DNA of 53,650 nucleotides. It comes from a virus. Under the pieces are notes generated by a model. That model did no database searches, was not told the origin of the DNA, and saw only the letters and a program-made list of their open reading frames with translations. The translations under genes and the position numbers were made by a program. Within the stretch, counting starts at the first letter, position 1. Each line of letters begins with the position of its first letter. Below are positions 5,730 to 36,035 of this stretch, piece by piece. The stretch lies in IMG/VR virus record IMGVR_UViG_3300031707_000026, positions 1 to 53,650 of that record; one strand, 5' to 3'.

Positions 5730-5812
5730 TTTGTTGTTGTCGTACAGTTAGTTAGGTCGTCTGACTGACTCTCAGAATAACTCGACTAACCTGTCTTAAG
5801 CAGGAATAGCAT

Positions 5813-5851
5813 AGTTAGTTTGTCCCTTATTACATAAGGGACAAACTAACT
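5813..5851. repeat. 18-bp perfect hairpin, related to the one at 34306-34345
   Basis: An 18-bp stem (AGTTAGTTTGTCCCTTAT with its complement) closes a 3-base loop. The outer ten stem bases are identical to the hairpin at 34306-34345, and the inner eight differ with both sides changed. The flanks are also similar (CAGAATAACT..ACTAACCT versus CTGAATAACT..ACTAACCT). It follows the holin gene and may terminate late transcription, although the following T run is short (CTTTTTCT). Confidence 0.7.
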
Positions 5852-5864
5852 AACTATGCTTTTT

Positions 5865-5907
5865 CTAATCTGATTCTAATGCGTCTCTAATCTTGATATC
5901 TTATTAT
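5865..5907 (+). promoter_or_regulatory. Promoter P1 of the replication/modification operon (11-bp direct repeats)
   Basis: CTAAT cores begin at 5865, 5876 and 5887, exactly 11 bp apart, and a -10-like TATTAT lies at 5902-5907, 15 bp after the last core. The same geometry recurs at 11231-11273, 33424-33488 and, on the other strand, 32895-32936. It precedes the first gene of the rightward operon at 5946. Repeats at this spacing resemble binding sites for OmpR/PhoB-type activators. The activator is unknown. Confidence 0.65.
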
Positions 5908-25649: not shown

Positions 25650-25713
25650 CGAGCGGACGAGAATCGAACTCGTCTACACAACCATGTCGCTCGTGACGTT
25701 CTAAAGCCCGCTC
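25650..25713 (-). other. tRNA-like element overlapping the last leftward gene
   Basis: On the minus strand, GAGCGGG pairs with TCCGCTC as a 7-bp acceptor-like stem (one G-T), and GACGAG(TTCGATT)CTCGTC is a perfect T-arm. The region between is about 9 bases too short for a normal D arm plus anticodon arm; CACGA/TTGTG can make one stem with a 9-base loop. It overlaps the 3' end of the gene at 25701-26372. It is a degenerate or minimal tRNA mimic rather than a confident tRNA. Confidence 0.4.
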
Positions 25714-26372
25714 TCGCATCCCTGAATGTCGTTCAGGATGTCTTCCCAAGCAGACTCGATTCGAGTCTGAGCTTCGTTATCGAGCTCTTCTTGCCAAGCT
25801 TCGTGGCGCTTCTCAAGTTCTGTCCCGATCTCTTCTTTGTGCTCGTCAGCGTCGAACTCAGCATCCTCCTCGAGAGTCTGCTGTTCGAGCTCGTGAATAA
25901 TCTCGTCTCGAGCAGCATTCTCGTCCCACTCTTCGTACTCGTTCTTGACATCTTCTCGAATCTGATCTTCGTCGACTTCAAGATCAAACCCTTCGAGATC
26001 GCCAGCCCACGACTCTAGCCCATCAATACGCTCCTGAAGGAGTTGGCCTGCGTTCGACGATTCCTGGAGCTGCTCTGGCATGTTCGAGAGACTGTCTTCA
26101 CAAGTCGAACGAAGATCGTTGATTCGATCGACGAAGCTGGGGACTTCATCAGCGAGGGACTTGTCTGCAGAGAGAGCTCCAAGACCATCTTCGATCTCGT
26201 AGAGCTCTTGAAGGAATGAACTCTGCGTCAGCTGACCGCGAGTTGGAGGTGTCAGCTGCATGTGAAGCACACTATCGAAGCGAAATTGCCACCAGTAGTA
26301 CGAATCCCCTTTCTTAATTCCGTACTTCGGGTAATCTCTACGTGCATGTTTGACGTGCGTTACTTGAGGCAT
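25701..26372 (-). CDS. Acidic coiled-coil protein, unknown
   Basis: The protein has 223 residues. The first 60 are mixed (YYWWQFRFDSVLHMQL), then a long, strongly acidic helical region follows (VDEDQIREDVKNEYEEWDENAARDEI is one stretch of it in shorter pieces). Charge and helicity suggest a DNA-mimic or scaffolding-type early protein that binds a host factor, but this is speculation. It overlaps the preceding leftward gene by 35 bp and is the last coding gene of the leftward transcript. Confidence 0.6.
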   Translation of the reverse strand: MPQVTHVKHARRDYPKYGIKKGDSYYWWQFRFDSVLHMQLTPPTRGQLTQSSFLQELYEIEDGLGALSADKSLADEVPSFVDRINDLRSTCEDSLSNMPEQLQESSNAGQLLQERIDGLESWAGDLEGFDLEVDEDQIREDVKNEYEEWDENAARDEIIHELEQQTLEEDAEFDADEHKEEIGTELEKRHEAWQEELDNEAQTRIESAWEDILNDIQGCESGL

Positions 26373-26550
26373 ATTCTTCTCCCTTCATCTTCTCGACTTC
26401 ACGAATGACTTCAGTCAAGGTAACATCTGGTGTCTTGTCGAACAAGGCGACCAAGCGTACCCAATCTTCCCACCTGAAGACAACCAGGGCGTCATCAGTG
26501 ACGATACTTTTCTTGCTCTTAAGCTCTTCTTGAACAATGTGATGTGTCAT
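26338..26550 (-). CDS. Small unknown early protein
   Basis: The protein has 70 residues from an ATG preceded by AAAGGAGAAAACAT. The sequence is mixed alpha/beta (DALVVFRWEDWVRLVALF in the middle). A class B three-hairpin RNA element (26571-26650) lies directly upstream. No family is recognised. Confidence 0.5.
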   Translation of the reverse strand: MTHHIVQEELKSKKSIVTDDALVVFRWEDWVRLVALFDKTPDVTLTEVIREVEKMKGEEYASSNARQTCT

Positions 26551-26570
26551 ATGTTTTCTCCTTTTCTCTT

Positions 26571-26650
26571 GATCGTGCCGAATTACACGATCTCTTCAAG
26601 CTGACTAGACCTCGCTAGTCAGCTTGAAGAGATCAGGGAGATCGACTCCC
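26571..26650 (-). promoter_or_regulatory. Class B intercistronic RNA element (three hairpins)
   Basis: In the leftward RNA this reads: a GGGAG/CTCCC hairpin (26636-26650), a 20-bp perfect hairpin (26589-26634, 6-base loop), and a GATCGTG/CACGATC hairpin whose loop contains AATTCG, just before the ribosome site of the gene ending at 26550. The last two stems share bases 26589-26592, so they compete. Related elements lie at 31025, 32116 and 32462. Confidence 0.6.
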
Positions 26651-26658
26651 CGATCAAC

Positions 26659-26763
26659 TCACGATATGATGATAATGAGAGTGCACCCAGCGATGAGAAG
26701 CACGATGACAAGAAGGAGGGTCACTGAAATGATCACGAACACTCGAAGCATTCGAGCGATCAT
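26659..26763 (-). CDS. Very small hydrophobic membrane protein
   Basis: The frame starts with an ATG overlapping the stop of the SWIM gene (ATGA) and encodes 34 residues: MIARMLRVFVIISV, then LLLVIVLLIAGC. It is one membrane span, and LIAGC resembles a lipobox, though most of the protein precedes it and only nine residues follow. Start-stop overlap supports translation. Function is unknown. Confidence 0.55.
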   Translation of the reverse strand: MIARMLRVFVIISVTLLLVIVLLIAGCTLIIIIS

Positions 26764-27104
26764 ACTTTGATCCTTGACGTAAGAATCAACCCATCTCCAA
26801 GCTCATGAATTCGCTTGTGTTGTCGATGAGCATCCTCGATCGACGACCACACACTAAGACGACGACCCTCAGCCTTCTCAGCAAGAAAGTCTCTCACAGC
26901 GACGACATGAGAACACCCACAAGGAGTGCCAGGCTCACGATACTTGCCCCACTCGCACGTACAGGTCACGTTCGCTGCTTCTGTGAACTTCACTGTGTAC
27001 AGCTCGCCGGAAGCTCCACTGACGACAAGATACTCGTCTTCACTTAGAGGGGTGACTTCATGAGAGCGACTTTTTACTTGCATCTCTTTCGGAAATCTGT
27101 TCAT
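26760..27104 (-). CDS. SWIM zinc-finger domain protein
   Basis: The protein has 114 residues after GGGAGGAGCTT. Residues about 30-75 form a SWIM domain: YTVKFTEAANVTCTCEWGKYREPGTPCGCSHVVAV, i.e. CxC...CxH as zinc ligands. SWIM domains bind DNA or proteins. In phages small stand-alone copies occur among early genes of unknown role. Confidence 0.75.
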   Translation of the reverse strand: MNRFPKEMQVKSRSHEVTPLSEDEYLVVSGASGELYTVKFTEAANVTCTCEWGKYREPGTPCGCSHVVAVRDFLAEKAEGRRLSVWSSIEDAHRQHKRIHELGDGLILTSRIKV

Positions 27105-27125
27105 AAGCTCCTCCCGAAGCTTTGC

Positions 27126-27512
27126 TTAGCCAGCACGATAGTTGCAGAGAACGATCCCTGCGTCACCTCCTGCAAGCAACTCGATACACGTCGACTTGCG
27201 GTGCTTGAGCCAAACATCTCCACCTTCGTCACCATGCGCAAACGCCGCAATCTTGCGAGCTTGTAGTTCAGTCGCCGCTCGAACTACGACCCCGTTGACG
27301 ACATCGTAGGCATCGCTCTCCTCCTTTGAGTGTAGAAGCCACAGCTTTATCGCATCTTCTGTCTTGATTATCTTGACGCTGCCGTTAAGATACGCAACGC
27401 GATCTGCAGCTTTCTCTCGATCAGTGTGATCACTGTCAGGATGCCAAACCCCCTTCGGGTCGTAGAAGCCGACTGTCCAGAGACCTGGCTCTGATTGAAT
27501 GTAGACATACAT
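27126..27512 (-). CDS. Unknown early protein
   Basis: The protein has 128 residues from the ATG at 27512, preceded by GAAGGAGAATCCC; the longer frame upstream overlaps the next gene and lacks a ribosome site. The first 50 residues have a small beta-sheet pattern (YVYIQSEPGLWTVGFYDPKGVW). No cysteine cluster or membrane span stands out. Function is not recognised. Confidence 0.55.
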   Translation of the reverse strand: MYVYIQSEPGLWTVGFYDPKGVWHPDSDHTDREKAADRVAYLNGSVKIIKTEDAIKLWLLHSKEESDAYDVVNGVVVRAATELQARKIAAFAHGDEGGDVWLKHRKSTCIELLAGGDAGIVLCNYRAG

Positions 27513-27525
27513 GGGATTCTCCTTC

Positions 27526-27777
27526 CTAGACGTTATAGTGAGGGATCGTATCAGCGATCGTCGAGAACAAGAGACGAGCAGCTTCGAAGGGAACTGTGTC
27601 TCCCTCAGCAGCAACACGATCATCACTCCAATCAGTCAGACCGCGATACGCAGTCCAAAAGTGATCTGAGTGAATGACTGCGATGACCTTGTAGCCGAAG
27701 AGATCTCTTGACTTGATTTCATTCCCTTGAACAACATAGGGATTCAGCGTCCCGTTCTCATTTGGATTTCGAGACAT
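27526..27777 (-). CDS. Unknown small early protein
   Basis: The protein has 83 residues and starts 20 bp inside the end of the upstream leftward gene, indicating translational coupling. The core (GYKVIAVIHSDHFWTAYRGLTDWSDDRV) looks like a compact alpha/beta fold. No family is recognised. Confidence 0.5.
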   Translation of the reverse strand: MSRNPNENGTLNPYVVQGNEIKSRDLFGYKVIAVIHSDHFWTAYRGLTDWSDDRVAAEGDTVPFEAARLLFSTIADTIPHYNV

Positions 27778-28150
27778 GATTCACCTGCTCTCTAGCTGCT
27801 TTGACAAAAGCATTGAGCTCGCAATCAAACCGCTTGAGGAACTGAGCACGAGTCTTCGTTGAAGCATTCGTCTTGAGCCCAACCCAGCGCTTTATCTCGG
27901 TTGGTGTGAAGAAGACTGGTTCTCGATCAACGATCTTGCCCTTGTCGTCGAAGTCTCGGCCAATGCGAAAAGCACTACTCGTGATTTCGATGAGATGAAT
28001 TCGGGCATACACTTCAGGCCAGTTGCTCTTGGTGATCTCAGGGATCCCAGACGAGATTGATCCGAAGACCAGACATTCGCGTGCTGCACGATCATTATCG
28101 TCGATCGGTTTGGGAGGCACACACTTTGTTGAATCGACCTGTAGAGACAT
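27758..28150 (-). CDS. Unknown early protein
   Basis: The protein has 130 residues after the ribosome site GAAAGGAGAAACAAG, directly below a class A RNA element (28169-28229). It has mixed charged helices at the C-terminus (TRAQFLKRFDCELNAFVKAAREQ). No domain is recognised. Confidence 0.5.
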   Translation of the reverse strand: MSLQVDSTKCVPPKPIDDNDRAARECLVFGSISSGIPEITKSNWPEVYARIHLIEITSSAFRIGRDFDDKGKIVDREPVFFTPTEIKRWVGLKTNASTKTRAQFLKRFDCELNAFVKAAREQVNHVSKSK

Positions 28151-28168
28151 CTTGTTTCTCCTTTCTCT

Positions 28169-28229
28169 GAGGCTGAACCGCCTCGTGCTACTCTCGAGTC
28201 GTATCGAGAGTAGCCAATGAAGGTTCAGC
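28169..28229 (-). promoter_or_regulatory. Class A intercistronic RNA element (pseudoknot-like)
   Basis: Plus-strand GAGGC-TGAACC-GCCTC (28169-28184) is a hairpin with hexaloop TGAACC, next to an 11-bp hairpin (28187-28214). The loop is complementary to GGTTCA at 28222-28227, so in the leftward RNA a distal segment can pair with the loop nearest the ribosome site. The long-range match extends to eight bases (GCTGAACC with GGTTCAGC). Confidence 0.65.
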
Positions 28230-28455
28230 TTTTCTGAGCGTCGTGGATGATCACATTGATGGCGTCGTGGATGATCACATTGATGTGACCTGTGAGAGCA
28301 TAGAACACATTACCTTCAGCTTCGATCAGTCGAAGTGAAGCATCTCGATCTTGAGACTCAGGGATCTCTGCGACGAGCTGTTCGAGGAGCTCGTGAGCTC
28401 GAAGAAGAAGCTGTTGAGCTCGTATAACTTTGTCAAGCTGTTGCGATGAGATCAT
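28225..28455 (-). CDS. Small helical protein with duplicated tail
   Basis: The protein has 76 residues, mostly helical (SSQQLDKVIRAQQLLLRAHELLEQL). The C-terminus repeats NVIIHDA twice because of a 24-bp tandem duplication in the DNA (GCGTCGTGGATGATCACATT twice, 28239-28286). There is no ribosome site as strong as in neighbours. Function is unknown. Confidence 0.45.
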   Translation of the reverse strand: MISSQQLDKVIRAQQLLLRAHELLEQLVAEIPESQDRDASLRLIEAEGNVFYALTGHINVIIHDAINVIIHDAQKS

Positions 28456-28456
28456 A

Positions 28457-28678
28457 CTACACCGAAGCCTTTCGCCCGAGATAGAGGTTCATCTTGAGCT
28501 GGCCAGGAACAGCTGTGAAGCCGCCAGTCGAAGCGATGCCAATCATCTTGCCTGAAGAGCTCGCTCCGATCTCTTTCGTCGTATCGACGACGATGATCAG
28601 CAAGTCGTCCTGTTTGACGATCTTTAAGTTCTCACCAACAGCCTTCGCGTCCTTGAGATTTACAGAGATTGTGTCCAT
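28457..28678 (-). CDS. Unknown small early protein
   Basis: The protein has 73 residues after AAAAGGAGAAAAGCA. It shows a beta-rich pattern (ISVNLKDAKAVGENLKIVKQDDLLIIVVD, then IGIASTGGFTAVPG). The stop lies one base from the next leftward gene. No family is recognised. Confidence 0.5.
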   Translation of the reverse strand: MDTISVNLKDAKAVGENLKIVKQDDLLIIVVDTTKEIGASSSGKMIGIASTGGFTAVPGQLKMNLYLGRKASV

Positions 28679-28693
28679 TGCTTTTCTCCTTTT

Positions 28694-28996
28694 CTAGCTC
28701 TCGATCACATCGAGAAATCGAGAAACGAACTCACTTGCACTGAGCGTCTGAATCTTCTCTCGTTGTCGTCGCTCGATCTGTTGAGTCTCTCCCAAACAGA
28801 GACGCTCGCTCAGACGGCGATAGATAACACTCAGTGCTTTCAAGTCAGCATGGTACTCTTCTGACTGATTGGGCCCATGACGAATGACTACCTTGAACCA
28901 ACAGCGAGACCCGATCTTGCGAAATAGGTAGTCGTCTGGGCCTATGCCCCCAGACTTGAGGGTTAGATTCCCTCCTTCAAAAAACGTCGCTGTCAT
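28694..28996 (-). CDS. Unknown early protein with ribosome-proximal class A element
   Basis: The protein has 100 residues from the ATG at 28996, preceded by TAGGAGAGAAAAGT; the longer frame upstream reads through the RNA element and is rejected. Beta-rich first half, helical second half (ALSVIYRRLSERL). No family is recognised. Confidence 0.5.
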   Translation of the reverse strand: MTATFFEGGNLTLKSGGIGPDDYLFRKIGSRCWFKVVIRHGPNQSEEYHADLKALSVIYRRLSERLCLGETQQIERRQREKIQTLSASEFVSRFLDVIES

Positions 28997-29013
28997 ACTT
29001 TTCTCTCCTATTT

Positions 29014-29073
29014 GGGACTGAACCGTCCCTGACCGAGTCTTAACATTTGTTAAGACTCGGATATGAAGGTTCA
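29014..29073 (-). promoter_or_regulatory. Class A intercistronic RNA element (pseudoknot-like)
   Basis: Hairpin GGGAC-TGAACC-GTCCC (29014-29029), then a 13-bp hairpin CCGAGTCTTAACA/TGTTAAGACTCGG (29033-29060), then GGTTCA (29068-29073) complementary to the first loop. The leftward ribosome site follows directly. Compared with 29929 and 31595, the loop and partner both change (TGAACC/GGTTCA versus TGAACG/CGTTCA), as do the two sides of the stem. Confidence 0.7.
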
Positions 29074-29913
29074 ATCTGTTAGCTGCTTGTTTCGACCACC
29101 CATACTCTTCTGTCCAATGTGTAGAGTGGCACCGACTTCAGAGCCCTTAGCGTAGCCGAGAGTGTTGAAATCATTACCCCCAGAGCTCACAGTGTTAAAG
29201 CCTTTCGAGAACAGCTTCCACTTAGCTGCGAGATTCTCGTCAAAGACAACAAGCGCTAACGAGACGTTCTTGGTGCGAGAATCTTCCTGCTCTTGCAGGG
29301 ACTTGCTGACAGCAGACAAGCATCCCTGCAACCAAGACTGGCGGAAGACGTTTGGGTGTTCACCCATCAACCCTGAGATGCGATATGCGCTGTTGACGCT
29401 GCGAATGCCTCGATTGAGCTCGTTGTACTCAGTGACGAGCTCTTTGCAATACACAGATGTCGCTTCTAACGCCATCAGCGTGAGCTTGTTCAACCACTCG
29501 ACGAACAGCTGAGAAGCAAGCTCTGCACTCGATTCCTTTCCGTAGAAGCCAATGGTCTTGCCCAACGAGCGTTCATAGCCGTACACAGTCTTCATTGGCT
29601 TGTCATCGTCTGTATACTTCCCTGTCGAGAAGTGCTTCGTGTGCGTGATGTGAGCGATGACGCGAGCAAGCTGCCAGTGCCAAGAGCGAATAACACCAAA
29701 CATGGCGTCTGCGTTCTTGGACTTGAATGCTTCGTCGATGACGACGTTGCCTGCTTCGTGCACTTCGGCCATCGAAATCGAATACTTATCCATCAGACGC
29801 TGCATCGCTGCTGATGCGTTCGCGATCTCGCCTTCGAAAGCACCGCTGTCTGGGTTCACGATCTCAGACAGCTTGCGAACTTGCTCGATGATTTTCTTAC
29901 GACTTTTTGTCAT
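29071..29913 (-). CDS. DUF2786-like early protein
   Basis: The protein has 280 residues from ATG 29913 after AAAAGGAGACTCAAG. The N-terminal 50 residues (KKIIEQVRKLSEIV, then GEIANASAAMQRLMDKYSIS) match the DUF2786 helical module found in many phage and bacterial proteins, followed by a larger alpha/beta region (FFGVIRSWHWQLARVIAH-like, with YGYERSLGKTIGFYG). Its biochemical role is not established. A class A element lies immediately upstream. Confidence 0.65.
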   Translation of the reverse strand: MTKSRKKIIEQVRKLSEIVNPDSGAFEGEIANASAAMQRLMDKYSISMAEVHEAGNVVIDEAFKSKNADAMFGVIRSWHWQLARVIAHITHTKHFSTGKYTDDDKPMKTVYGYERSLGKTIGFYGKESSAELASQLFVEWLNKLTLMALEATSVYCKELVTEYNELNRGIRSVNSAYRISGLMGEHPNVFRQSWLQGCLSAVSKSLQEQEDSRTKNVSLALVVFDENLAAKWKLFSKGFNTVSSGGNDFNTLGYAKGSEVGATLHIGQKSMGGRNKQLTD

Positions 29914-29928
29914 CTTGAGTCTCCTTTT

Positions 29929-29986
29929 GGGATTGAACGATCCCAGTGTGCTCATCTCTTTTGAGATGAGCACTAGCGAGCGTTCA
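29929..29986 (-). promoter_or_regulatory. Class A intercistronic RNA element (pseudoknot-like)
   Basis: Hairpin GGGAT-TGAACG-ATCCC (29929-29944), 11-bp hairpin GTGCTCATCTC/GAGATGAGCAC (29948-29973), then CGTTCA (29981-29986) complementary to the loop. It lies between the gene ending at 29988 and the DUF2786 start. Confidence 0.7.
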
Positions 29987-29987
29987 A

Positions 29988-30302
29988 CTACTTGCTAAAC
30001 TCTTTCTTGAACAGTTGTTGGACTTTCTTCTCAACAAGGTCGAGCTGGATCGTCTCGAGATCGGCGACATTCTCGATGCAGCTTTCGCCGAGGATGCGAA
30101 GAGCTTCACCCACATCTGGGAATTCTTCTTCAGAGCTCTGCCGCATCTCATAACCGATCGAGATGAGTTGGGTTTTGTACTCGGAGACGAACTCATCAGC
30201 AAGGAACTCGTCTGAAGGGTAGCCACAAGCAGCACAAGCCTTCCGCTCGAGAGCGTTAAGCTCGGCTGTGCTCATAGCAGGGACTGAAACTCTCGTAGTC
30301 AT
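29988..30302 (-). CDS. Unknown small acidic protein
   Basis: The protein has 104 residues. A CAAC motif near residue 23 followed by acidic helices (VSEYKTQLISIGYEMRQSSEEEF) is visible. It overlaps the upstream gene by 4 bp. Function is not recognised. Confidence 0.5.
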   Translation of the reverse strand: MTTRVSVPAMSTAELNALERKACAACGYPSDEFLADEFVSEYKTQLISIGYEMRQSSEEEFPDVGEALRILGESCIENVADLETIQLDLVEKKVQQLFKKEFSK

Positions 30303-30562
30303 TCTACACCTCCTAGAACAGAATTGCGATCAAGCGATACTGCTAGAATTGCTGGCGAGCCTTCTGTACAAGAAAGCATGAACCCCTTCTCGAACCTGTT
30401 GCCCATGCTTAGCTCCTCGAGGCGATGACGACTTGCGAGCGTGACATGGTTATATGATCGAGTAGCAGTGTCCGTCGATGTGCCAGGAATGTATTCTGTA
30501 ACGAGTGCACTACCACCGTCCCAGAAGGTCAAGCGCTTGTCGTTCTTTACTTTTGAAGCCAT
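30299..30562 (-). CDS. Unknown small beta-rich protein
   Basis: The protein has 87 residues from the ATG at 30562, preceded by AAAAGGAGATGTTAAA; the upstream extension would read through the RNA element. Beta-rich sequence (RLTFWDGGSALVTEYIPG, FMLSCTEGSPAILAVSL). A class A element (30579-30639) precedes it. Confidence 0.5.
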   Translation of the reverse strand: MASKVKNDKRLTFWDGGSALVTEYIPGTSTDTATRSYNHVTLASRHRLEELSMGNRFEKGFMLSCTEGSPAILAVSLDRNSVLGGVE

Positions 30563-30578
30563 TTTAACATCTCCTTTT

Positions 30579-30639
30579 GGGATTGAACGATCCCTTCCTA
30601 GCTTCCAGCGAATGCTGAAAGCTAGGCCACGAGCGTTCA
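30579..30639 (-). promoter_or_regulatory. Class A intercistronic RNA element (pseudoknot-like)
   Basis: Hairpin GGGAT-TGAACG-ATCCC (30579-30594), a 13-pair hairpin with one mismatch (30597-30626), then CGTTCA (30634-30639). The middle hairpin sequence is unrelated to those of the other elements while its length and position are kept. Confidence 0.7.
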
Positions 30640-30640
30640 A

Positions 30641-30780
30641 TCTTCTCCTACCATCTTCACTATGCCCTTACTCGACTTTGTTCTCGAGCGTGGGGGAGCT
30701 TACAAGAGAAGGGGTTTTCGCTCAAAGACAAACTCGCTCTGAGCAACTTGGTAAGACTGACGATGCGCTGCAGACAAAGG
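30641..30780. other. Leader/spacer without a convincing gene
   Basis: Only short frames are present. On the minus strand the frame following the stop of the gene at 30781 stays open for about 23 more codons to a TAA, which could be a readthrough tail or chance. No hairpin family member is found here. Confidence 0.4.
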
Positions 30781-31008
30781 CTACTCGACATTAACCCACT
30801 TCATGCAAGTTTGCAAAAGGTGATTGTAGTCGCCGCTTGTCGCTTCGCCCATGAAGGCATCGCAGTCTTCCTTCGAGACGTCGTTGCTCTTCAAGGCCTT
30901 GGAAACCTTGCCCAAAACGAAGAAGGCGTTGCCGTCTTCGCCAGAAAGTTGGACGGTGATCTCGGGGAACTTGACAGCACCTGCGGTCGTACTTTGATTT
31001 GTCGTCAT
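30781..31008 (-). CDS. Unknown small early protein
   Basis: The protein has 75 residues after TAGGAGATGTCAAG. The sequence alternates a short beta segment (FPEITVQLSGEDGNAFFVLG) with a helix (KVSKALKSNDVSKEDCDAFMGEA). This FxVLGKVxxALxxxGV-type pattern is common in small phage proteins of unknown role. A class B element lies upstream. Confidence 0.55.
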   Translation of the reverse strand: MTTNQSTTAGAVKFPEITVQLSGEDGNAFFVLGKVSKALKSNDVSKEDCDAFMGEATSGDYNHLLQTCMKWVNVE

Positions 31009-31024
31009 CTTGACATCTCCTAGA

Positions 31025-31110
31025 TTGCATTGAATGATGCAACCTTAACAAATCATCTAACAAGGAGTTAGATGATTTGTTAAGGTTGAGCAACTGAGAA
31101 GTTGCTCAAC
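31025..31110 (-). promoter_or_regulatory. Class B intercistronic RNA element (three hairpins)
   Basis: Plus-strand order: TTGCAT-TGAATG-ATGCAA hairpin (31025-31042), a 21-bp perfect hairpin whose base is AACCTTAACAAATC (31041-31087), and a hairpin GTTGAGCAACT/AGTTGCTCAAC (31085-31110). In the leftward RNA the first lies next to the ribosome site. Adjacent stems share one or two bases. Confidence 0.6.
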
Positions 31111-31120
31111 TTTGATCTTT

Positions 31121-31372
31121 CTAGAAGTCTAGCCAGAGAGGGAGCTTCTCGAACTCTCGACCCCACCACTCGATCATTGAGTCGCCTTGATCATACGCCT
31201 TCATTACTAGGCATCGAAGGTTGTTCGAGTGAAAGAGATCCATTGTTATCGTGCCGCGCTCGATTGCCAAGAATGTGTTGCTGAGTTCGATGTAGGCATC
31301 AGTTTGTGCAGCATTGTATAAGCGGGCAGCTTCCTGCTTGTCCCATTGTTGCCAAACGGGTAGCATAGTCAT
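31121..31372 (-). CDS. Unknown small early protein
   Basis: The protein has 83 residues from the ATG at 31372, preceded by AAAGGAGAAATGAA. It is largely helical (WQQWDKQEAARLYNAAQTDAY) and ends EWWGREFEKLPLWLDF. No family is recognised. It starts 13 bp below the stop of the next gene. Confidence 0.5.
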   Translation of the reverse strand: MTMLPVWQQWDKQEAARLYNAAQTDAYIELSNTFLAIERGTITMDLFHSNNLRCLVMKAYDQGDSMIEWWGREFEKLPLWLDF

Positions 31373-31385
31373 TTCATTTCTCCTT

Positions 31386-31580
31386 TCACAAATAGCCAAG
31401 CTGTCGAAGCGAGCGACTAGCCTTCATGAATTGACTCCAGCGCTTCACAGCCCACATCTCAGCAAGTTCGCGGTCAGTGAAGAAACGTTTCCCGACGAAC
31501 ACTTGCGAGTTCCCCTGCACGGCGCTTAGACGAATCGTGACGCCGTTTGGTGCATACTTTCGGTCGACTTTTACGTGCAT
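31386..31580 (-). CDS. Unknown small basic protein
   Basis: The protein has 64 residues from the ATG at 31580 after CAAAGGAGAAACAAG. It is basic with a beta-rich first half (VKVDRKYAPNGVTIRLSAVQ) and a helical end. A class A element (31595-31654) is directly upstream; the longer frame through that element is rejected. Confidence 0.5.
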   Translation of the reverse strand: MHVKVDRKYAPNGVTIRLSAVQGNSQVFVGKRFFTDRELAEMWAVKRWSQFMKASRSLRQLGYL

Positions 31581-31594
31581 CTTGTTTCTCCTTT

Positions 31595-31654
31595 GGGATT
31601 GAACGATCCCTGACTCAACCTTAACATTTGTTAAGGTTGAGATGCGAGCGTTCA
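31595..31654 (-). promoter_or_regulatory. Class A intercistronic RNA element (pseudoknot-like)
   Basis: Hairpin GGGAT-TGAACG-ATCCC (31595-31610), 13-bp hairpin CTCAACCTTAACA/TGTTAAGGTTGAG (31614-31641), then CGTTCA (31649-31654) complementary to the loop. The middle hairpin contains an inverted pair of the GTTAAGG box. Confidence 0.7.
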
Positions 31655-31661
31655 ATTAGCT

Positions 31662-32087
31662 TTAGAGCATCAACTCATCGCGCAGGAACGGCGGCAAGTG
31701 AGAATTGTGGTAATAGTAGCTCGTCGCGATGAACGGCGCTACTTCTTCATACCACTTCTTGGTGCTGCGATATGCTTGCCGAATCTTGCCGTCGACAACT
31801 ACTGCATGCTCAATCGTCTCATCGCGTCCCCACTTGCTGATGCGAAAGATTGTGCCGACCGAGCCTTCCTGCTTGCCGTCTGCAGAGCTCATCAACGCTT
31901 CGAGATTGGTGCGAGCTTCACCAAGCGTCACAAAGTCTTCAGAGCGAGCTGTTTTGTGAAGCTTGTCGTCGTCGCCGATGACGCGCAGCGTTGCAAAGTA
32001 GCGAGTTGTCGTAGTGCCATGCTTGATCATGCGGGCTCGCCTTGCAGAAAACTTGCTCATCATCCTTTCGTCGAACATTGTAGCCAT
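31662..32087 (-). CDS. Unknown basic early protein
   Basis: The protein has 141 residues after AAAGGAGAGCAAAG. Basic N-terminus (MMSKFSARRARMIKHG), a beta-rich core (YFATLRVIGDDDK, GTIFRISKWGRDETIEHAVVVDGKI) and a Tyr/Pro-rich end. No family is recognised. It shares an almost identical leader with the gene at 32214-32435. Confidence 0.5.
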   Translation of the reverse strand: MATMFDERMMSKFSARRARMIKHGTTTTRYFATLRVIGDDDKLHKTARSEDFVTLGEARTNLEALMSSADGKQEGSVGTIFRISKWGRDETIEHAVVVDGKIRQAYRSTKKWYEEVAPFIATSYYYHNSHLPPFLRDELML

Positions 32088-32115
32088 CTTTGCTCTCCTT
32101 TTTGCAAAAAATAGA

Positions 32116-32206
32116 TTGTAGCCGAATTGCTACAACCTTAACAAGTCGTCCAAACTAGTTGAACGACTTGTTAAGGTTGAGGAGCTCCTCCTCGAGCTCT
32201 TCAACC
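32116..32206 (-). promoter_or_regulatory. Class B intercistronic RNA element (three hairpins)
   Basis: Plus-strand order: TTGTAGC-CGAATT-GCTACAA hairpin (32116-32135), a 16-bp hairpin with base AACCTTAACAAGTCGT (32134-32178), and a 13-bp hairpin GGTTGAGGAGCTC/GAGCTCTTCAACC (32175-32206, one G-T). The first hairpin is identical to that at 32462. Confidence 0.6.
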
Positions 32207-32213
32207 TAAAACC

Positions 32214-32435
32214 TTACGCTGAGTGCCAGCCGAAGCGGTAGTAGAAGCGTCGCATCTTTGCTTCGCCTTCAACCTGCACTGTCGCGCGAACATAGACGCC
32301 GCTTGGGCCTAAGCCGCACGTCACAATTTTCGCTGACTTGCCAAGCTTGGCTGCAAGCTTAGCAACCTTGACTTCAAGCTCCCTGCGAGTCATTACAACA
32401 TATTTCGCGTTTTCCTTCTCGTCTTCTGTAGCCAT
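32214..32435 (-). CDS. Unknown small basic protein
   Basis: The protein has 73 residues after AAAGGAGAGCAAAG. An N-terminal helix (RRELEVKVAKLAAKLGKSAK) is followed by beta strands (GVYVRATVQVEGEAKMRRFYYRFGW), giving a KH- or dsRBD-like alpha/beta impression that I cannot confirm. It is the first clear gene of the leftward operon and has a class B element upstream. Confidence 0.5.
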   Translation of the reverse strand: MATEDEKENAKYVVMTRRELEVKVAKLAAKLGKSAKIVTCGLGPSGVYVRATVQVEGEAKMRRFYYRFGWHSA

Positions 32436-32461
32436 CTTTGCTCTCCTTTTGCAAAAATAGA

Positions 32462-32554
32462 TTGTAGCCGAATTGCTACAACCTTAACAAATCACTCAAA
32501 GGCAAACTTTGCTTTGAGAGATTTGTTAAGGTTGAGCAACTCTCGTTGCTCAAC
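32462..32554 (-). promoter_or_regulatory. Class B intercistronic RNA element (three hairpins)
   Basis: Plus-strand order: TTGTAGC-CGAATT-GCTACAA (32462-32481), a long hairpin AACCTTAACAAATC.CTCAAAG with its complement and one A-A mismatch (32480-32533), and a 10-bp hairpin GTTGAGCAAC/GTTGCTCAAC (32531-32554). Confidence 0.6.
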
Positions 32555-32964: not shown

Positions 32965-33413
32965 TTGTGTAAAGTTTTGTTAAGGTTGTTAAGGTGGGGA
33001 GCGAGCGCGCGTGATTTGTTAAGATACTGCTCGCACGCTTTCAAGCCTGCGCGCAAAGCGACGCGCTCGTTAGGGTTGTTAAGATTGTTAAGGTTGTTAA
33101 GATTGTTAAGGTTGTTAAGACTCGCGCGCACACTCGCTCGCACTCACTCGCTCTCTCGCACGCACTCGCGCGGTCGCTCGCTCAAAGTTGAGCTTGCGCC
33201 GAGCGGAGTTGTGAAGCGCGAGTTGTTAAGGTTGTTAAGGTTGCGCGTATCTTAACAAATGTTAAGGTTGTTAAGGTTGCGCGTATCTTAACAACCTTAA
33301 CGGCTGCGCGTACCTTAACAACCTTAACAACTGCGCGGTGTTAAGGTTGCGAAGAGCTGCGATTTGTTAAGGTTGTTAAGGTTGCGCGTACCTTAACAAC
33401 CTTAACAAATCGC
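32965..33413. repeat. Dense array of GTTAAG boxes between divergent promoters P4 and P3
   Basis: I count 15 forward GTTAAG and 7 inverted CTTAAC hexamers, mostly as 9-bp steps of TTGTTAAGG. Several form large inverted repeats, e.g. a 24-bp stem at 33359-33382/33390-33413 around TGCGCGT. CGCG- and CTCG-rich stretches separate the blocks. Position between two divergent promoters suggests an operator array or replication-initiator iterons. Confidence 0.75.
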
Positions 33414-33423
33414 ACCAAATCCT

Positions 33424-33488
33424 CTAATCTTCTTCTTAGCGCCTTTTAATCTCCTCTTAATACTCTCTTAATCTTGGTAGCCTATAAT
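33424..33488 (+). promoter_or_regulatory. Promoter P3 of the cytosine-poor gene
   Basis: CTAA/TTAA-type cores begin at 33424, 33436, 33446, 33457 and 33468 (spacing 10-12 bp), and a perfect TATAAT at 33483-33488 starts 15 bp after the last. It has the most repeat copies of the four related promoters. Confidence 0.7.
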
Positions 33489-33540
33489 ATAGGTATAAAG
33501 GAAGCCGCCGGTTTCCTAAAAGAAGAAAAGGAGAAATGAA

Positions 33541-33822
33541 ATGAAAGAAAGAATTGAAAGGGAAATAGAAAGAGTAGGAAATGAGTATGGGGTGAGAGTT
33601 GGAGAGAGGTTGGAAGAGAGATTGTTAAGGTTGGAAAAGTTAGGAAAGGAGATTGAAAGTGTTAAGGCTTATGTTTTTGAAGGAAAGGAGAAGGAGATAG
33701 GTTATGCAGGAAGAAGGGGATATGGTAGGGGTTTTTGGAAAAGAGGAGTTGTTAAGGTTGTAGGAGAAGTAGGATTAAGGAGATGGTTTTGGTATGGAGG
33801 AAGGTGGTGTAATAGTAGATAA
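33541..33822 (+). CDS. 93-residue protein encoded by an almost cytosine-free gene
   Basis: An ATG follows AAAAGGAGAAATGAA. The coding strand has only two C in 282 bases, and no more from about 33517 to 33841. The protein therefore lacks Pro, Thr, His and Gln and has two Ala. The first 45 residues look like a charged helix (ERIEREIERVGNEYGVRVGERLEERLLRLEKLGKEI), and the rest is basic, Gly- and Trp-rich. Three GTTAAGG boxes lie inside it. It has its own promoter (P3) and terminator. Function is unknown; the DNA or RNA composition may matter more than the peptide. Confidence 0.6.
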   Translation: MKERIEREIERVGNEYGVRVGERLEERLLRLEKLGKEIESVKAYVFEGKEKEIGYAGRRGYGRGFWKRGVVKVVGEVGLRRWFWYGGRWCNSR

Positions 33823-33835
33823 ATAGATAGGTAGG

Positions 33836-33872
33836 AAAAGGAACCTTAACAAATGTTAAGGTTCCTTTTTTT
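33836..33872 (+). terminator. Intrinsic terminator after the cytosine-poor gene
   Basis: GGAACCTTAACA pairs with TGTTAAGGTTCC around a two-base AA turn, followed by TTTTTTT, and the A run before it pairs into the T run. The stem is an inverted pair of the GTTAAGG box, so it may serve as both terminator and protein-binding site. Confidence 0.85.
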
Positions 33873-33873
33873 A

Positions 33874-34000
33874 AGATTGTTAAGATGCGTTAAGGTTGTT
33901 AAGGTTGCGCGGCTCGTGTTAAGGTTGTTAAGCTCGTTAAGGTTGTTAAGCTCGTTAAGGTTGTTAAGCTCGTTAAGGTTGTTAAGCTCGTTAAGGTTGG
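33874..34000. repeat. Second GTTAAG array with 18-bp tandem repeats
   Basis: Twelve GTTAAG hexamers occur in about 125 bp. From 33933 the unit CTCGTTAAGGTTGTTAAG is repeated exactly three times (33933-33986) with a partial fourth and a 20-bp variant before. All boxes point the same way. Open frames through it (Leu-Asn-Asn or Arg-Leu-Leu repeats) are artefacts. Confidence 0.8.
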
Positions 34001-34235
34001 CAACCCCCGGCGCGTGCGCGATGCGCGAGAGCCCGGGAGCTGTGTGCGACATCAGCGACAATCGCATCTCACATCTCTCACTACGCATCTACAACGCCCA
34101 GATCAAGTCACATCTCGCATCTCCCTACACTATGCAACCCCAAAAGGCCGCCAAACTTTAGGAAACAGCACGCTTAAAAAGCACGCTTGCAACGCCCCCT
34201 ACAACGCCAAGGTCTAGAGAACAGCACGTCTCGAA
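34001..34235. other. Non-coding spacer
   Basis: No convincing gene. A partial direct repeat is visible: AACAGCACGCTTAAAAAGCA (near 34164) versus AACAGCACGTCTCGAAAGCA (near 34220). Confidence 0.4.
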
Positions 34236-34437
34236 AGCATCGTTTGACATGTCAAACTAACTTCCCTGAATAACTTTACTAACCTATCCCGAGCAAAGTT
34301 AGCAAAGTTAGTTTGCCGCATATATACATATGCGGCAAACTAACTATGCCCAACTATGCTTTGTGGGGGAAAAACTGTCAAAATAACCGCAGTTCTTTTA
34401 AGTTATTTTGACAAAAACATGCGTGTCAAACGATGCT
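34236..34437. other. Nested inverted-repeat region, possible origin or control site
   Basis: A 14-bp inverted repeat (AGCATCGTTTGACA at 34236, TGTCAAACGATGCT at 34424) brackets about 175 bp. Inside lie a 16-bp palindrome GTTTGACATGTCAAAC (34242-34257), an 18-bp hairpin (34306-34345) and an 11-bp hairpin GTCAAAATAAC/GTTATTTTGAC (34377-34412). Confidence 0.6.
34306..34345. repeat. 18-bp perfect hairpin, partner of the one at 5813-5851
   Basis: AGTTAGTTTGCCGCATAT pairs with its complement around ATAC. The outer ten bases match the 5813 hairpin. The inner part differs but pairing is kept, so structure rather than sequence appears to be selected. The two copies bracket the early half of the genome. 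Confidence 0.7.
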
Positions 34438-34580: not shown

Positions 34581-34829
34581 ATGGCTCTTAAATGGATTCA
34601 GCCCAGATTATTTTATCTCTTCTCTGACGGTCCCATTGTTCGCATTGGGACGGAGTACACAGAAGAAGCGAAGCGAAGACCCCGTCTAGCTCGTCTTGGG
34701 ACGAAGCACTCTGAAGAGACGAAGCGAAAGATTGGCTCGTACCACCTTGGGACGAAACACTCTCCCGAGACGATTCAAAAGATGCGCGATACCTACCAGA
34801 GGAACCATGGCCTTCGGCAGCAAAGCTAA
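34581..34829 (+). pseudogene. NUMOD3-repeat fragment of a homing endonuclease
   Basis: An 82-codon frame contains two and a half NUMOD3-type repeats (ARLGTKHSEETKRKI, HLGTKHSPETIQKMRD) like the DNA-binding tail of the GIY-YIG genes in this genome, but no catalytic module. The ribosome site is weak. It overlaps the terminase small-subunit start by 23 bp. It is probably a remnant of an endonuclease that once interrupted this position. Confidence 0.6.
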
Positions 34830-35358: not shown

Positions 35359-36035
35359 TTGCTGGCGTCTACGAGATTAGAAATGTTTTGAACGGACATA
35401 GATATGTGGGGAGTTCGAGTGACGTGCGCTGGCGATTTCTATGCCATCAAGATGATTTGCAAAAGGGCCTACATCATAGTCGTTATCTACAGAGAGCTTG
35501 GAACAAGTATAGCGCTGAGAATTTCGTGTTTCGTGTTCTCCTCAGATGTGATCCCGATATGCTCATCTTCTTCGAGCAGAGACTCATGAACGTCATCAAG
35601 CCTGAGTATAACATTTCACCGACCGCTGGGAGTCCTCTAGGATGCAAGCATTCTGAAGAAACGAAGTTGAGATTGAGTATAATCAATCGAGGAATCAAGC
35701 GTACTGAAGACCAGAATCGAGCGAGGAGTCTTGCTCGTCAAGGGTGCAGACACTCTGAAGAGACGATCTCGAAGATGAAGATCAGTCATCGACGGGAGAA
35801 TCTATCAAAAGAGACACTTCAAAAGATGAGTCTAGCCAGTCGAGGACGAAAGTGGTCTAAAGAAACGAGAACGAAGCATCAAGGGATTAGACCTTCAGAT
35901 GAGACTAGACAGAAGATGCGAATAGCTAAATTGGGACGAAAGCAGTCTAGGGAAACAATTCAGAAGAGATGCAATACTCGAGCTTACAATCATCGACGCC
36001 TTGCTCTTCTTGCTTCGCTGGGGGGTTGGGTATGA
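35355..36035 (+). CDS. GIY-YIG homing endonuclease with NUMOD3 repeats
   Basis: The protein has 226 residues. The catalytic domain comprises GVYEIRN, YVGSSSDVRWRFLCH, RAWNKY and the FFEQRLM Glu. It is followed by about six NUMOD3-type repeats (LGCKHSEETKLRLS, RQGCRHSEETISKMK, LGRKQSRETIQKR). It is inserted between the terminase subunits, overlapping both by 4 bp, with no damage to either. It is related to the enzyme at 21449-21946. Homing endonucleases commonly sit beside terminase genes. Confidence 0.85.
   Translation: MIAGVYEIRNVLNGHRYVGSSSDVRWRFLCHQDDLQKGLHHSRYLQRAWNKYSAENFVFRVLLRCDPDMLIFFEQRLMNVIKPEYNISPTAGSPLGCKHSEETKLRLSIINRGIKRTEDQNRARSLARQGCRHSEETISKMKISHRRENLSKETLQKMSLASRGRKWSKETRTKHQGIRPSDETRQKMRIAKLGRKQSRETIQKRCNTRAYNHRRLALLASLGGWV

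Follow-up and report, generated by a model that had tools for sequence, protein, structure and literature searches.

Class A elements form a real and previously undescribed family of structured RNAs in a group of uncultured phages, where they are used repeatedly within one operon. Judging from the sequences, two helices of the element, S1 and S2, are maintained by compensating changes, and the element probably controls either the translation of each gene block or the cutting of its message. The copies within a genome differ in every helix yet stay paired, and they thereby provide a ready-made set of natural variants. With this set one can ask how a phage adjusts the output of its individual gene blocks, and also whether a stop codon can belong to a switch that controls the next start.

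The sequence studied here, the window, is the whole of positions 1 to 53,650 (53,650 bases) of the IMG/VR virus record IMGVR_UViG_3300031707_000026. It carries genes for DNA polymerase, primase, helicase and terminase as well as head genes, and no close relative of it was found in the phage collection searched. The elements lie in a leftward operon (25701..32435, minus strand) of ~17 small genes, most of which have no family match. The genes downstream of the five class A copies differ from each other and have no assigned function.

The gaps between the genes of this operon (n=16) fall into two kinds: eight measure -35 to 21 nt and are free of elements, while the other eight measure 74-218 nt and each contain an element, class A in five and class B, a different arrangement of hairpins, in three. 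All gaps above 21 nt thus carry a class A or B element and no shorter gap does. The elements therefore lie at borders between tightly packed gene clusters, and they sit at the borders of translational units in the operon.

Read in the RNA sense (minus strand), a class A element has a length of ~60 nt and consists of the S1 strand TGAAC[G/C], a 7-nt linker, a hairpin of 11-13 bp, 2-3 nt, S2, the Shine-Dalgarno sequence (SD) and an ATG. S2 is a 5-bp hairpin, and in all five window copies its 6-nt loop is exactly complementary to S1. The linkers around the middle hairpin are near-constant, with 7 nt before and 3 nt after it. From the end of S2 to the SD there are 2-6 nt in the window layout; among all copies, most have 2-4 nt there and two have 6 and 10 nt. 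The window contains the full layout, SD and start included, five times, against two occurrences in total in 60 dinucleotide-preserving shuffles (0.03 per shuffle).

All five copies are on the minus strand. Element 1 (31595..31654) has S1 TGAACG at 31654-31649, the linker CTCGCAT, a 12-bp middle hairpin at 31641-31614 (CTCAACCTTAAC/GTTAAGGTTGAG) followed by TCA, and S2 at 31610-31595 (GGGAT-CGTTCA-ATCCC); next come the SD AAAGGAG and the start at 31580. Element 2 (30579..30639) combines S1 TGAACG (30639-30634) with a 13-bp hairpin (30626-30597) and S2 GGGAT-CGTTCA-ATCCC (30594-30579) ahead of a start at 30562. The same S1 and S2 sequences are found in element 3 (29929..29986), with S1 at 29986-29981, an 11-bp hairpin at 29973-29948, S2 at 29944-29929 and the start at 29913. 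Element 4 (29014..29073) has S1 TGAACC (29073-29068), a 12-bp hairpin (29060-29033), S2 GGGAC-GGTTCA-GTCCC (29029-29014) and a start at 28996. Finally, element 5 (28169..28227) has S1 TGAACC (28227-28222), an 11-bp hairpin (28214-28187), S2 GAGGC-GGTTCA-GCCTC (28184-28169) and a start at 28150.

The initial annotation had described five such elements ahead of the SD, and all were recovered. Its parts are present, but in the RNA their order is the reverse of the one it gave: the element opens with the single-stranded partner, and the hairpin bearing the loop stands at its end, beside the SD. Loop and partner do change together, as exact complements (CGTTCA with TGAACG in three copies, GGTTCA with TGAACC in two), and the S2 stem changes on both sides, giving three versions among the five copies (GGGAT/ATCCC three times, GGGAC/GTCCC, GAGGC/GCCTC). 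The middle hairpin keeps its length within 11-13 bp as its sequence changes, and in three of the five copies the sequences are unrelated. Inside the window, S1 covariation amounts to a single pair position (C-G versus G-C), and the strong evidence for S1 comes from relatives. A promoter reading, with TTGAAC as a -35 box, was dropped, since inspection showed no -10 box at a fixed distance.

A covariance model of the window's five copies alone, which described S2 and the middle hairpin and left the S1 pairing out, matched copies in contigs G001-G005 of IMG/VR at E 4e-4 or better. The metagenome search proposed earlier thus found the element in five other contigs, two of them from distant phages; the remaining matches were these palindromes read in antisense and a few with E >0.2. 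Starting from the protein of gene 29071-29913, two contigs were reached at 68% identity; their matching operons contain 9 and 11 copies, eleven being the highest number on one genome fragment. DNA patterns together with a terminase scan gave a third contig of this group and the two distant phages, L050/L202 (G002, 4 copies) and L203 (G001, 2 copies). G001 has tail genes and distant replication genes in common with the window, and G002 little except the terminase. Between G001 and G002 no common protein was found at E 1e-4, G002 being possibly incomplete. Further, window gene 28457-28678 has no element whereas its relative in L203 has one, so the element is not bound to particular genes.

A second model (R1), built from 22 copies, added one further copy, L010:1727-1786. 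It had no match in 28 whole contigs with relatives of the terminase or of phrog_1933, and no class A copy was found in a distant primase relative or in a fragment of a close one. Searching the window with Rfam 15 at gathering score returned tRNA only, and a relaxed Rfam search of 28000-31800 gave a single chance CRISPR match (E 1.1). The element cores gave nothing convincing with blastn against 50,697 phage records. A pattern scan of ~85,000 prokaryote genomes yielded 14 matches that we read as chance; the S2 stem matches in L210 alone, where S1 is unpaired. Matches from a loose pattern scan of viral contigs were likewise mostly chance.

The covariation set consists of 23 copies (21 distinct) from six contigs and about three lineages. 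Pairs changed on both sides number five of six in S1 and four of five in S2, together nine of eleven, and the pairing rate is 91% for S1 and 99% for S2. Paired cells make up 94.7%, compared with 22-54% when the partners are slid. None of 500 shuffles reaches the observed covariation score; related copies are counted repeatedly in the cells, and the shuffle counts are therefore not probabilities.

Individual copies illustrate how the pairing is kept. In L202b, TGAACC/GGTTCA has become TGAGCC/GGCTCA. The GTTCA core, almost invariant in the distant phages, is replaced in L010:1727-1786, where the S1 pair is TAGAGC/GCTCTA; this copy was found by a model blind to S1 pairing. ORF 1631-1729 ends in frame on the TAG of this copy, which means that pairing and stop codon have changed together. 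The exceptions are a mismatched sixth S1 pair in two copies of the L009/L010 group and one of L203, and three G002 copies in which S1 pairing requires a bulge (TGAC[A/G]C). Both inside the window and in the out-of-sample copies, the data strongly support the earlier view of covariation that marks a conserved RNA fold.

S1 starts with a stop codon in every one of the 23 copies, TGA in 22 and TAG in one. The upstream reading frame ends exactly at this stop in nine copies and 4-10 nt earlier in 13, so that in 22 of 23 the upstream stop lies 0-10 nt before S1. In the window, the TGA of S1 is the stop of gene 29071-29913 in element 4 and of gene 28225-28455 in element 5, while the upstream stop precedes S1 by 4 nt (TAG) in element 3 and by 10 nt in element 1. 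The exception is element 2, where 144 nt separate the end of the upstream gene from S1 and a possible five-codon mini-ORF, ATGGTAGGAGAAGATTGA, terminates on the TGA of S1. The proximity of stops to S1 may partly stem from genome compaction.

S1 can pair in two forms, either with the S2 loop while S2 stands, which is a hairpin-loop kissing pseudoknot, or as an outer nested stem that abolishes S2. Without linker pairs the energy of the S1-nested state minus that of S2 averages -1.4 kcal/mol (range -2.8 to +1.0, 15 copies). When every pair may form, the nested state is the more stable one in 22 of 22, by 2.5-7.8 kcal/mol. However, pairing of the linker with the 5' arm of S2 is no better than in composition-matched shuffles (combined P 0.90). 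A nested stem extended through the linker, attractive in folds, is kept as unproven given this value and an energy permutation P of 0.23; an in-register permutation of the extension gave P 0.008 (9 combinations). Y2-R67 pairing, a competitor of S2, has P 0.046. The 3' arm of S2 and the SD form a weak hairpin (mean -1.6 kcal/mol, range -0.2 to -3.0).

With near-equal energies and extra linker pairs at chance level, the pseudoknot is one of two models. The pseudoknot proposed earlier is possible, but a nested S1 stem, which needs the same pairs, has about the stability of S2. As far as the alignment tells, the S1/S2 covariation is compatible with simultaneous and with alternative pairing alike.

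We tentatively favour a role of class A as a translation-start module for the following unit, in which the S1 strand would lie under the ribosome terminating upstream. A terminating ribosome covers ~12 nt past the start of the stop codon. Ending on the upstream gene, it would cover all or much of the S1 strand, and S1 would then be free to pair with the S2 loop only in the absence of a ribosome terminating there. With S1 blocked, S2 would form and its 3' arm (UCCC or CCUC, complementary to the SD) would be held off the SD; with S1 free, S1 would either compete with S2, releasing the anti-SD arm, or knot it. Initiation of the next unit would in this way sense translation of the previous gene. 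An iterated relay gated by stop codons, in which the ribosome ending each block covers one strand of a loop-pairing switch and so sets initiation of the next block of the operon, is rather unlikely; if true, the stop codon would be a built-in part of the switching helix.

The translation-start module is consistent with the S1/S2 covariation, the stop at S1, the near-equal energies, the weak SD hairpin and the location in long gaps. Against it count the very weakness of the hairpin sequestering the SD (-0.2 to -3.0 kcal/mol), element 2, where no full gene ends at S1, L010:1727, where no SD follows directly, and class B, which has a different fold in equivalent positions; moreover, the stops near S1 may reflect nothing but genome compaction. 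Further, short gaps already couple genes, and elements at the borders could equally uncouple them. The suggestion that the element controls translation fits its position, with S2 beside the SD, but a role in mRNA processing fits too.

Such processing is the main rival, although somewhat unlikely. The nested S1 and the middle hairpin would form an irregular duplex of ~18-25 bp that receives an RNase III-type cut, after which S2 would refold into a hairpin that protects the 5' end of the downstream message, and class B would play the same role with a near-perfect duplex of ~20 bp. The elements are indeed located where short-gap gene clusters meet, the nested state is slightly favoured before a cut and S2 is able to form after it, and gaps of the equivalent kind contain class B hairpins of comparable length. 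An RNase III site calls for a duplex of ~20 bp or more; class A reaches ~18-25 bp if S1 nests, with conserved mismatches, and the linker pairs with the 5' arm of S2 at chance level (P 0.90), so the duplex is interrupted. Moreover, processing leaves the stop codon in S1 without explanation. A static pseudoknot, with the helix between S1 and the S2 loop stacked on S2 and the middle hairpin with its 7-nt and 3-nt linkers as the bridge, might act as an insulator or enhancer beside the SD. That all 6 nt of a loop pair is possible, as TAR-TAR* illustrates; every copy keeps both S1 and S2, the 7-nt and 3-nt linkers are near-constant, and the linker shows no preference for pairing with S2. We regard this arrangement as decidedly unlikely, since S1 in three copies of G002 pairs only with a bulge (alternatively CGCC pairs with GGCG of S2) and Y2-R67 pairing would compete with S2.

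Two readings place less weight on the fold. An operator through which a trans-acting RNA-binding protein controls all copies jointly would agree with the near-invariant GTTCA core in distant phages and the many copies in each genome; it is improbable, for the core is replaced in L010:1727, and G001 and G002 both carry elements without a common protein at E 1e-4, although G002 is perhaps incomplete. That the copies are a DNA-level repeat without a function in the RNA, be it an operator or a mobile palindrome, would account for the CTTAAC motif, which is repeated elsewhere in the genome and often found in the middle hairpin. Such a repeat is highly improbable: the copies are always sense-oriented right after a stop and nearly always ahead of an SD, and the pairing of three helices is kept despite varying sequence and spacing.

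By analogy, class A would work somewhat like phage leader pseudoknots and translational attenuators. The gene 32 mRNA of phages T4, T2 and RB69 has a 5'-leader pseudoknot that controls translation (PMC3014915). That pseudoknot is one copy for one gene, lies 67 nt upstream of the start and is bound by gp32, whereas class A has many copies at the SD, an inserted hairpin and a stop codon within a helix. Rather than a single pseudoknot before a single-strand binding protein gene, we find five copies before different genes. In the repYZ leader of IncI/IncB plasmids a loop pairs with a distal segment near the SD, and termination of an upstream frame is needed. It shares the loop-distal pairing near the SD with class A, but is a single copy controlled by antisense RNA, with another order of parts.

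In erm-type translational attenuators, SD-like and anti-SD-like segments alternate, with a ribosome translating an upstream frame as the gate. For class A the gate would instead be ordinary gene termination and not a stalled leader peptide. As in an attenuator, an upstream reading frame ends at the first segment (22 of 23 copies, 0-10 nt), which compaction could produce as well; where exclusive helices and a sequestered SD would be expected, the S1-nested and S2 states are near-isoenergetic and the SD hairpin is weak. The RNase III processing sites of T7 are irregular hairpins between early genes, just ahead of the next SD, and compared with these class A has the extra S2 hairpin and the loop pairing.

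The SAS/ESAS repeats of Cluster K mycobacteriophages and Cluster EF Microbacterium phages likewise occur in many copies, in short intergenic gaps and with inverted repeats, and like class A they lie at start sites, in their case of non-structural genes. However, a repeat of this kind would be expected to have the 13-bp core at start codons and 17-bp inverted repeats lacking compensating changes, in contrast to the nine of eleven S1/S2 pairs changed on both sides. Pairing between the left and right ESAS repeats in RNA is, according to the authors, generally not supported (PMC3203893), and the 13-bp core GGGATAGGAGCCC has no match in the window with up to 2 mismatches. We agree with the initial annotation that the analogy is loose.

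In general, class B elements have three successive hairpins (~7-10 bp, 18-25 bp and 5-8 bp) ahead of the SD, the last often with the loop AATTCG. The one at 31020..31105 (minus strand) has hairpins of 10 bp, 18-22 bp and 6-7 bp, the last with the 6-nt loop CATTCA, and an SD. Others lie near 32105-32205, 32455-32550 and 26575-26655 (minus strand) and, in a relative, at L010:320-470, 690-800 and 1030-1130. The ends of the long hairpin in the window are common to neighbouring hairpins (CAAC/GTTG in three, GATC/GATC in one), which allows adjacent hairpins to exchange base pairs.

Some further features were observed. A 32-aa membrane-like ORF (L010:1631-1729) lies between two class A elements, and after L010:1727-1786, which no SD follows, the next likely start is near 1935. 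The CTTAAC motif forms the middle hairpin in two class A elements of the window and in nearly all L009/L010 copies. CTTAAC/GTTAAG occurs 68 times in the window against 26 expected, and its repeats are dense in the noncoding stretch 33000-34010, perhaps a replication origin or a protein-binding array. Degenerate 38-nt direct repeats (CTTGGGACGAAGCACTCTGAAGAGACGAAGCG...) with a spacing of ~51 nt are found at 34644-34783 and 35637-35776. Finally, two near-perfect inverted repeats of 19-22 bp, at 5802-5866 and 34302-34349, have AGTTAGTTTG in common although they are far apart.
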